Of a DNA stretch of 47,798 nucleotides, positions 15,435 to 30,781 are shown piece after piece (position 1 is the stretch's first letter; each line of letters begins with the position of its first letter). Under the pieces are notes generated by a model that did no database searches, was not told the origin of the DNA, and saw only the letters and a program-made list of their open reading frames with translations. The position numbers and the translations under genes are program-made. This stretch comes from Anaerolineae bacterium (lineage in GTDB: Bacteria > Chloroflexota > Anaerolineae > Anaerolineales > UBA11858). The DNA is taken from contig JACNJM010000253.1 in the NCBI GenBank assembly GCA_014382605.1, forward strand, positions 1,385 through 49,182, given 5' to 3'.

Positions 15435-16472
<1,038 letters not shown>

Positions 16473-16541: not shown

Positions 16542-18188
16542 ATGAACAACAACTACGTCCGTATCTTTGATACCACCCTGCGTGATGGCGAGCAATCCCC
16601 TGGGGCAACCCTGACCTCCGTTGAAAAGCTGGAGATCGCCCGCGGGCTGGCGCGTTTGGGTGTGGATATAATCGAAGCCGGGTTCCCGGCGGCCTCACCG
16701 GATGACTTCGAAGGTGTGCGCCGCATCGCCGTGGAAGTGGGGAATCCGCCCGAGGGCGTAGATGACCCCGATTATCGCGTCCCCACCATCTGTGGGCTGG
16801 CCCGTGCCACCCAAAAAGATATTGACGCGGCCTGGGGGGCGATCCAATCTGCCAAAAAACCGCGCATCCACACTTTTTTGGCAACTTCCCCCATCCACAT
16901 GCAATACAAGTTGCGCATGGATCCCGAAGAAGTTGTTGACCAGGTGCGCGAGATGGTTGCTTACGCGAAATCTTTGTGTGATGATGTCGAATTTTCACCC
17001 GAAGACGCCGGACGCAGTGATCCAGAATTTCTCTATTTGGTGCTGGGCGAAGCGATCAAGGCCGGGGCGACCACGCTCAATATCCCCGATACAGTGGGCT
17101 ACACCACGCCCGAAGAGTTCGGCGCCCTGATTGCCGGAATCGTGGAGCACACGCCGGGCATCGAAAACGCGGTTGTCTCGGTGCATTGCCATGACGATCT
17201 TGGTCTGGCAACCGCCAACGCGCTGGCAGGCATTCAGGCCGGGGCGCGTCAGGCCGAAGTAACCATGAACGGAATTGGTGAGCGCGCCGGAAACACATCG
17301 CTCGAAGAAGTGGTCATGGCGCTAAAAACCCGCCAGCCGGTCTACAACCTGGAAACAGGTATCGATACTACGCAGATCACGCGCATCAGCCGCATGGTTT
17401 CAAATTACACCGGAATGCCAGTGCAGCCGAATAAGGCCATCGTTGGGGCGAATGCCTTTGCCCACGAAGCCGGAATTCATCAGGATGGGATGCTCAAAAA
17501 CAACAGCACCTATGAGATCATGAAACCTGAAACGGTGGGTTTGCACCGCTCTCGTCTGGTGTTAGGCAAACATTCGGGCCGCCATGCCTTGCGTGTGCGT
17601 CTCGAAGAATTGGGCTATGGGCTGGAAGGCGAAGAACTGGATCGAGCGTTCCAAAGTTTTAAAGAATTGGCCGATAAGAAGAAAACCATCACGGATGCCG
17701 ATTTGGAAGCTCTGGTAGAAGATCTAATGGACCGCGTCAGCGAAATCTACAGCCTGGATGGTTTGCAGGTGGCGTGCGGGACGATAGGGTTGCCAACCGC
17801 TACCGTACGTTTGCTTGGCCCCGATGGCGAGTTGCACATTCAAGCCGCCATTGGCACCGGCCCCGTGGATGCGGCCTATAAAGCCGTTGATGAGATTGTA
17901 AAGGTTCCGAATACGCTGCTGGAGTTCAATATCCACGCCGTGACCGAGGGAATTGATGCTATGGGTGAAGTTACTGTGCGCCTGAAAGCTAAAAACGGCT
18001 CTGTCCCGCGGCGCACATCACCCCAAAGCGGGCGCACCCGTGCGCGCACATTTGGCGGATACGGCGCGGATACCGACATCATCACCGCCAGCGTCAAAGC
18101 TTATTTGGCTGCTGTAAATAAACTGCTAGCTGCCCGTGAGCGTTCGGAAGTTTTTGAAGCGGTAATCAGTCAGCCGATAGCCAACTGA
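16542..18188 (+). CDS. leuA: 2-isopropylmalate synthase
   Basis: [48 protein letters not shown]-terminal LeuA dimer domain; start trimmed to MNNNYVRIF. Confidence 0.95.
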
Positions 18189-18244
18189 AAGACGAATTGT
18201 GTGTTCTGTAAGCTTGTCTTTATTGATGATTTAGGAGAAGAAAC

Positions 18245-18448
18245 ATGGCCGAAAAGAAAAAAGCCCCCCGTGAAAACGCCTTTGAGAAGTTCCCCCAACC
18301 GCGCACTTTCCCCTCTCAGTGGGATATGTCGGGGATGATGGCCGCTGAGGCTCCCCAGCAATATGCCGATGTGGAAGATCGCATGGAAACCTTCCCTGAG
18401 CCGCGTACTATCCCTGCCAAATGGGATGTCTCAGGATTAAAAAAATAG
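18245..18448 (+). CDS. 67-aa microprotein with internal duplication
   Basis: Good SD (taggag); [15 protein letters not shown] and [15 protein letters not shown], 34 residues apart; between leuA and leuC on the same strand. Confidence 0.75.
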
Positions 18449-18461
18449 GCTATTTGTTCGT

Positions 18462-19880
18462 ATGAATCAATCCAACAATCCCAAAACGCTATACGAAAAA
18501 GTATGGGAAGCGCATATTGTTGCCGAAAGCGATGATGCGCCCTGCGTGCTCTATATTGACTTGCATCTCATTCATGAGGTGACATCCCCCCAAGCCTTTA
18601 GCGGTTTACGTGAAAAAGGGCTAAAAGTTCGCCGCCCAGAGCGCACCATCGCCACGATGGATCACTCCACACCAACGATTTCTCTCAGCTTCGACTCCGC
18701 GGATGATATGGCTGTTGCCCAACTTGAGCAAATCACCAAGAATTGCGCCGAATTTGGTATTACCCTCTACGATGCTGAAAGCGATGGGCGTGGCATCGTC
18801 CACGTGATCGGGCCAGAACAAGGGTTTACCCAACCTGGCAAAACTATTGTCTGCGGAGACAGCCATACATCTACACATGGCGCATTTGGCGCACTTGCCT
18901 TTGGTATCGGCACATCCGAAGTGGAGCATGTCCTCGCGACCCAATCTTTGCTGCAATCAAAATCAAAGGCGTATGAAGTCCGCTTTGAAGGTGAACTTCC
19001 CTTTGGCGTGACAGCTAAAGATATGGTTTTGGCGCTCATTGCTAAAATTGGGATTGGTGGCGGCACTGGGCATGTCTTTGAATATACAGGCGATGCAGTC
19101 AAAGCCCTCGATATGGATGGACGCATGACCCTTTGCAATATGTCCATTGAAGCCGGCGCACGAGCAGGTATGATCGCTCCCGATGAGACGACTTTTGAAT
19201 ATCTCAAAGGACGTCCCTATGCACCCCAAGGCGCTGATTGGGATGCCGCCGTTGAGAGATGGAAGCAACTTCCCTCCGATGAGGGCGCAGTTTACGACAA
19301 AACCGTCACCATCGATGTCTCCAAGCTTGAACCGATGGTGACTTACGGTACCAACCCTGAGATGGGTATCCAAATCAGTGAAAGGATACCCAGCCTGCAA
19401 AACATGGATTCTGCTGCGCAGCAATCCTCACTTGAAAAGGCACTCAGCTATATGGACCTTAAACCTGCCAGTACCTTGAAAGGGCATCCTGTAGATGTGG
19501 TTTTTATTGGCTCATGCACGAACTCACGCATGAGCGATCTTCGAGCAGCAGCGTCCATCCTGAAAGGGCGCAAAGTTGCCGATGGGTTGCGTTTGCTAGT
19601 TGTTCCCGGTTCAGAGAGTATCCGCAAACGCGCCGAAGCAGAAGGTATCGACAAAATTGTACGTGATGCAGGCGGCGAATGGCGTTTTGCCGGTTGCAGC
19701 ATGTGTTTGGCGATGAACGGTGATGAACTTGAACCTGGTCAATACGCGGTGAGTACCAGCAACCGCAATTTTGAAGGTAGGCAGGGGAAAGGCGGACGTA
19801 CCATTCTCGCCAGCCCCCTCACCGCAGCTGCCAGTGCTATCACCGGCAAAGTCACCGATCCACGTGAGATGATGCAATGA
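18462..19880 (+). CDS. leuC: 3-isopropylmalate dehydratase large subunit
   Basis: 472 aa; [59 protein letters not shown]. Confidence 0.97.
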
Positions 19881-20467
19881 GATCTTTCACTAAACTAACT
19901 TCAAAAATCATTCCTCTGCCATACACCGATGTAGATACAGACCAAATTATCCCTGCTCGCTATTTGAAAGTGGTCAATAAGGACGGTTTGGCAGAAGGGC
20001 TTTTCGATAGCTGGCGTAAGCTTGAAGATGGCAGTCCCAACCTTGCTTTTCCGCTCAATCAGGATGAATATCAGGGCGCAGAAATTTTGCTGGCTGGTGA
20101 TAATTTCGGATGTGGCTCATCTCGTGAGCATGCTCCCTGGGCATTAACTGGATGGGGGATTCGGGCCATCATTAGCACTTCCTTTGCAGATATATTCAGG
20201 AACAACTCGCTTAAGAATGGCCTGTTACCGATTATCGTAGACGAAGAGACGCACGCATCACTCTTCGACCTGACAGAAGAAGCACCTGCAGCCACAATTG
20301 ATATTGATTTGGCATCCCAAACGCTGTTCCTGCCCGGTGGAGAGAAGGTTTCCTTTGAAATTGATTCTTTCAGTAAAACGTGTTTGCTCGAAGGGATCGA
20401 TCAGCTTGGCTATTTGTTGAAACACGAAGCCGAAATCGCGGCCTATGAAGCCGCCCGAGATTTTTAG
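19877..20467 (+). CDS. leuD: 3-isopropylmalate dehydratase small subunit
   Basis: 196 aa; [60 protein letters not shown]; 4-nt overlap with leuC. Confidence 0.97.
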
Positions 20468-30445: not shown

Positions 30446-30451
30446 AATCTG

Positions 30452-30524
30452 CGCTCTCGGCGCGACTCGAACGCGCGACCCCTTAGTCCGCAACCAAGTG
30501 CTCTATCCACTGAGCTACGAGAGC
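30452..30524 (-). tRNA. tRNA-Arg (anticodon GCG)
   Basis: Cloverleaf by hand: GCTCTCG..CGAGAGC acceptor, CTTGG-TTGCGGA-CTAAG anticodon arm, GCGCG-TTCGAGT-CGCGC T arm. Confidence 0.92.
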
Positions 30525-30529
30525 AAAGG

Positions 30530-30618
30530 CGGGGAGGGCGGGATTCGAACCCGCGGTCGAGTTTTACCCCGACAACCGCTTAGCAGGCGGCCCCAATCAA
30601 CCACTCTGGCACCTCCCC
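30530..30618 (-). tRNA. tRNA-Ser (anticodon GCT)
   Basis: GGGGAGG acceptor, CCGC-CTGCTAA-GCGG anticodon arm, long variable arm, TTCGAAT. Confidence 0.92.
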
Positions 30619-30628
30619 AAGAAGTGCA

Positions 30629-30682
30629 GAATTATGAATGCAGAATACGAAATTAACGTTTCGTATTCTGCATTCATAATTC
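30629..30682. repeat. Perfect 24-bp-arm inverted repeat between two tRNA-Ser genes
   Basis: gaattatgaatgcagaatacgaaa-ttaacg-tttcgtattctgcattcataattc. Confidence 0.9.
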
Positions 30683-30696
30683 ACCATTTGTTAAGG

Positions 30697-30781
30697 CGGA
30701 GGGAGTGGGATTCGAACCCACGATGGATTGCTCCATACCTGTTTTCAAGACAGGCGCCTTCGTCCACTCGGCCATCCCTCC
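30697..30781 (-). tRNA. tRNA-Ser (anticodon TGA)
   Basis: GGAGGGA acceptor, CCTGT-CTTGAAA-ACAGG anticodon arm, long variable arm, TTCGAAT. Confidence 0.93.

Follow-up and report, generated by a model that had tools for sequence, protein, structure and literature searches.

A short conserved protein encoded next to leuC in Anaerolineae and its putative docking motif

Leucine biosynthesis is regarded as complete with the enzymes LeuA, LeuB, LeuC and LeuD. MbtH-like proteins, small helpers of adenylation enzymes, are encoded beside the enzyme they serve, and they resemble the short protein analyzed here, designated X, in size and in a P-x-G-W element, the latter through a weak match in one X relative. 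CP12 is a short (approximately 80 aa) disordered protein of metabolic pathways, as X probably is, and it bridges GAPDH and phosphoribulokinase as a linker, whereas for X we only infer that it binds other proteins. CP12 works by redox-active cysteine pairs, while X of the window contains no cysteine and the X alignments contain no conserved one, and no sequence relation between CP12 and X was found; X is accordingly not counted as a CP12 protein. The C-terminal part of CP12 is also present as the C-terminal tail of plant GapB (PMC4436894), and in this placement the CP12-derived tail parallels the X motif, which is apparently a tail of LeuA in one genome (G230). For Arabidopsis, IPMI-IPMDH complexes in leucine and methionine chain elongation were reported based on Y2H, Co-IP and BiFC, which is evidence for an association of IPMI with another leucine enzyme (PMC7876033). 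The abstract of that study describes a direct enzyme-enzyme association and mentions no small adaptor, unlike the role proposed below for X.

The window, i.e., the whole analyzed stretch of 47,798 nucleotides from an Anaerolineae bacterium, encodes X on the forward strand (18245..18448, stop codon included) as an unannotated open reading frame with a translation of 67 aa. It is located between leuA (16542..18188, forward strand), encoding 2-isopropylmalate synthase with a C-terminal LeuA_dimer domain (Pfam HMGL-like, 2.8e-95; LeuA_dimer, 5.2e-33), and leuC (18462..19880, forward strand), encoding the large subunit of 3-isopropylmalate dehydratase (Pfam Aconitase, 1.9e-172). The small subunit is encoded by leuD (19877..20467, forward strand; Pfam Aconitase_C, 1.7e-32). 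The end of leuA and X are separated by 56 nt, X and the start of leuC by 13 nt. The first-pass annotation had described a 67-aa reading frame between leuA and leuC with a good Shine-Dalgarno (SD) sequence; the former is confirmed by the translation and the Pfam-typed neighbors, and the sequence shown by the latter is AGGAG (18233..18237, forward strand), 7 nt 5' of the ATG. The Lys-rich N-terminus described at the same time is not kept in the family, as most relatives begin with MTTQ, MNPQ, MNTQ or similar. The ilvC gene next to leuA (15459-16472 in the window, and in related operons) is of two types, being approximately 70-88% identical to that of the window in some relatives and 32-40% identical in most others. 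On the reverse strand at 30451-30781 the window carries three tandem tRNA genes, Arg(gcg), Ser(gct), and Ser(tga).

X is a real and constrained protein-coding gene because of a third-position bias, a low dN/dS of approximately 0.05 and its syntenic recurrence. Compared with a first relative of 67 codons, 12 of 15 differences are located at third codon positions; for a second relative of the same length these are 32 of 46, and between the two relatives 34 of 46. The NG86 dN/dS values for these three pairs are 0.05, 0.06, and 0.03, the latter two depending on saturated dS. A chance repeat or a non-coding reading frame is ruled out by dN/dS and by synteny in dozens of genera.

A search of 61 related genomes with the single protein revealed syntenic X relatives, among them one from an uncultured Anaerolineae (L032) that is 82% identical to the window protein. 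A motif profile was then built from 18 rows of a 26-residue core, some of which came from the window and the first relatives; with it, 53 of 301 sampled genomes of the order matched at E <= 1e-3, with E-values that are calculated per single genome, and outside the order no match at this threshold was found among 400 genomes of the phylum. A profile of 47 rows added three further genomes (one other family of the class, another order). At the approximately 60 loci inspected, X is located directly 5' of leuC in all cases apart from weak matches that were set aside (e.g., L121) and the LeuA tail of G230; at one locus (L105) X lies at the contig edge and leuC is cut off. The usual place of X is between leuA and leuC, and the sole exception among the strong matches examined is the in-frame C-terminal tail of LeuA. 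In a second set of LeuC-encoding genomes, scanned 5' of leuC, more diverged members were found that retain P-x-x-W-D-x-S; these show weak scores and were assigned by position. The LeuA fusion aside, the X proteins are 44-107 aa long. Homologues in related genomes, for which a profile search had been suggested, do therefore exist. A use of the motif as general tag on other enzymes was considered and rejected, with no strong match outside the operon in the samples of order, class or phylum, where the weak matches were inspected in part.

X of the window contains two copies of a motif of 23 residues, copy 1 at residues 10-32 (18272..18340, forward strand; profile match 7.3e-15, one genome) and copy 2 at residues 44-66 (18374..18442, forward strand; 2.5e-13, one genome), both E-values being not independent as the window motifs are included in the profile. 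They had been described as two near-identical units spaced by 34 aa; the spacing is correct, with starts at residues 10 and 44, while the term near-identical was overstated for copies identical at 12 of 23 positions. The constant part of X reads approximately F-x-x-[EQ]-P-[RQNH]-T-[IMFY]-P-x-x-W-D-x-S-x-[LFM]. The 47-row core alignment shows the same P and W throughout and a nearly invariant T; the flanks outside the motif vary freely. The conserved P..W core is in line with the earlier suggestion that the motif looks like a binding peptide, and it probably acts as a protein-docking peptide. The further suggestion of a bivalent peptide does not define the family, since one-motif and two-motif forms both exist and many relatives are single-copy. 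Motif copies within the same protein show a likeness of 0.55 compared to 0.43 between different proteins (permutation P 5e-5), which is clearest in G247 and G233, and the duplication is common to several genomes within family f1 and likewise within family f14. For these reasons the motif has been doubled more than once, or its copies have been homogenized. The X proteins of family f13 (L103, L111, L116, L119, L120, L024) carry a second conserved tail after the motif, approximately NGTA[FY]xQ and ending with NAV, DAV or NVV, which is located where the reading frame of X runs into the start of leuC.

Judged by sequence comparison, X constitutes a new and undescribed family. For the window protein and 19 relatives no match above the curated cut-offs was obtained in Pfam-A and NCBIfam, and none of the matches to PDB sequences was significant, the best values being E 1.2 for the motif profile, with 11 residues aligned, and E 0.67 for the G193 protein; the first-pass annotation had recognized no family either. 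A description of an X protein was not found in the literature covered, from which subscription papers were mostly excluded. Membership in the MbtH-like family (PF03621) was rejected, as the G193 protein, the only one with a match, reaches 19.9 bits over 24 residues compared to a gathering score of 27, and the other 19 full-length X proteins scanned gave no match at E 1. These reading frames are probably overlooked or wrongly labeled by gene callers, as they are not covered by a curated family. X is probably an intrinsically disordered protein, as was also proposed initially. The AlphaFold2 model of X alone is consistent with this, albeit based on an alignment of two rows, and contains almost no secondary structure (three helical residues, mean pLDDT 65, pTM 0.14). 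A model of the X-LeuC read-through at locus L032, based on three rows, was uninformative (mean pLDDT 34).

LeuC (E <= 1e-100) is encoded in 146 of the 301 genomes of the order, and all 54 clear X carriers, i.e., the 53 matched genomes and G188, which was confirmed by position, are among these 146. If phylogeny is ignored, a random placement of all 54 carriers within the LeuC set has a probability of approximately 2e-20. The number of carriers increases to approximately 70 when the diverged members are counted. A functional link of X to the leucine operon is very likely. About half of the LeuC-encoding operons lack X, showing that LeuC works without it, and in operons lacking X the gap between leuA and leuC mostly amounts to 5-170 nt. 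X has often been lost (or gained), and its presence shows hardly any clustering on the LeuC tree, where the 71 rows require at least 13 changes compared to 14.6 with shuffled labels. At two loci, L177 and L178 (genomes G048 and G021), a methyltransferase-like reading frame of approximately 230 codons is found in place of X between leuA and leuC, and a similar one is located between ilvN and ilvC in G193.

In the reading favored here, X would be a disordered protein accessory to the leucine branch, either monovalent or bivalent. The motif would dock on isopropylmalate isomerase (LeuC/LeuD), with LeuC as the proposed partner and LeuD as the alternative; X abuts leuC, and the synthesis of X may be coupled to that of this enzyme. 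X with one motif could then cap or stabilize the isomerase, the two-motif form of the window could hold two isomerase copies together, and the motif tail in G230 could bring LeuA to the isomerase. In its most far-reaching form, this reading sees X as a disordered two-headed adaptor that physically organizes leucine biosynthesis in Anaerolineae, LeuCD with itself or with LeuA, with a motif that is sometimes fused to LeuA, and thereby as a bacterial counterpart of CP12, which as a whole we regard as a doubtful possibility. That the isomerase is the direct partner of X is a tentative assignment from gene order, somewhat better founded than the adaptor as a whole.

The translation signals at the junction bear on how X might act on this enzyme. 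In 17 of 57 rows X and leuC overlap, the stop of the former with the start of the latter, and 56 of the 57 rows of the homologue table show an SD-like site of at least four bases before X, a number that is favorable by construction as the ATG with the best SD-like site was taken as the start. An SD-like site of this length precedes leuC in 5 of 58 operons with X compared to 7 of 16 without X (raw counts over related sequences). The scarce leuC sites in X-containing operons together with the start overlap give a hint, at the level of sequence, at translational coupling of X and leuC. These features, and the position of X before leuC, would also fit a co-translational delivery of X as a folding or maturation helper of LeuC/LeuD in an MbtH-like manner, serving yield or cluster loading instead of tethering. 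The weak match around P-x-G-W agrees with such a helper; however, it stays below the Pfam cut-off and concerns one protein only, many operons lack X, and the two-motif forms would be left unexplained. We therefore consider a role as helper to be unlikely, if still worth weighing against the tethering of the isomerase.

The partner of X could also be LeuA, with X binding its C-terminal regulatory dimer domain for feedback control or assembly and with the adjacency to leuC being an accident of operon order. The gene leuA is normally the immediate 5' neighbor of X, and in G230 no stop is found between LeuA and the motif: the LeuA ends with ...HNPFGDPHTIPTGWDTSAMVAF and the stop-free frame comprises 590 aa on a contig of 720 kb, an apparent fusion at the LeuA C-terminus. 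It is the only case among 147 genomes of its family, and this single genome points equally to LeuA. Against LeuA stands that X stays by leuC where leuA is displaced or replaced. In G682 leuA is located approximately 3.3 kb from X, and in G775 a leuA fragment is found at approximately this distance with the full leuA on another contig; in both genomes X adjoins leuC. In G193 the operon encodes a LeuA of a distant type followed by pckA, a two-motif X and leuC, and a canonical LeuA was not found in this genome, the best match (1.2e-38) being the cimA of the operon. The gene pckA (PEP carboxykinase) is located directly 5' of X-leuC in G193 (L160, 6992-8590) and in G109 (L227), which belong to different families. 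Weighing G193, G682/G775 and the overlap with the leuC start above the fusion in G230, the partner is placed on the side of LeuC/LeuD, and LeuA as the partner appears improbable. IlvC and CimA are unlikely partners, since the occurrence of X goes with leuC and with the junction between leuA and leuC.

Comparison of the enzymes themselves revealed no trace of a partner. In family f11 no column of LeuA, LeuC or LeuD (28, 28, and 25 sequences) separates operons with X from those without beyond shuffled labels. LeuA is approximately 65-80% identical across the order and higher within a genus, and LeuC is similar. Viral contigs scanned for alignment rows contained one LeuA-like locus and no usable LeuC. 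Most LeuA proteins of f11 (e.g., L083, L088, L097) end with a conserved N[DN][FY]GVMLG-like tail, whether X is present or not.

X could furthermore relay an external signal to the pathway, its motif bringing a nitrogen-, energy- or redox-sensing regulator to the leucine enzymes; a regulatory adaptor of this kind would be in keeping with the patchy presence, the disorder and the one conserved peptide, but the motif has no strong match outside the leucine operon in the samples scanned, and this explanation is quite improbable. That X is a mere translated spacer which couples leuC translation, its peptide being irrelevant, would accord with the overlap in some genomes and the strong SD site before X, but is hardly credible given the constraint on the amino acids and a P..W core that is invariant even in diverged proteins.

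With an extra conserved protein linked to the leucine operon of one bacterial class, a textbook pathway would have a regulator or organizer that has gone unrecognized. X also shows a short putative binding motif that has been gained, doubled and lost, and that is apparently fused to an enzyme in one genome.
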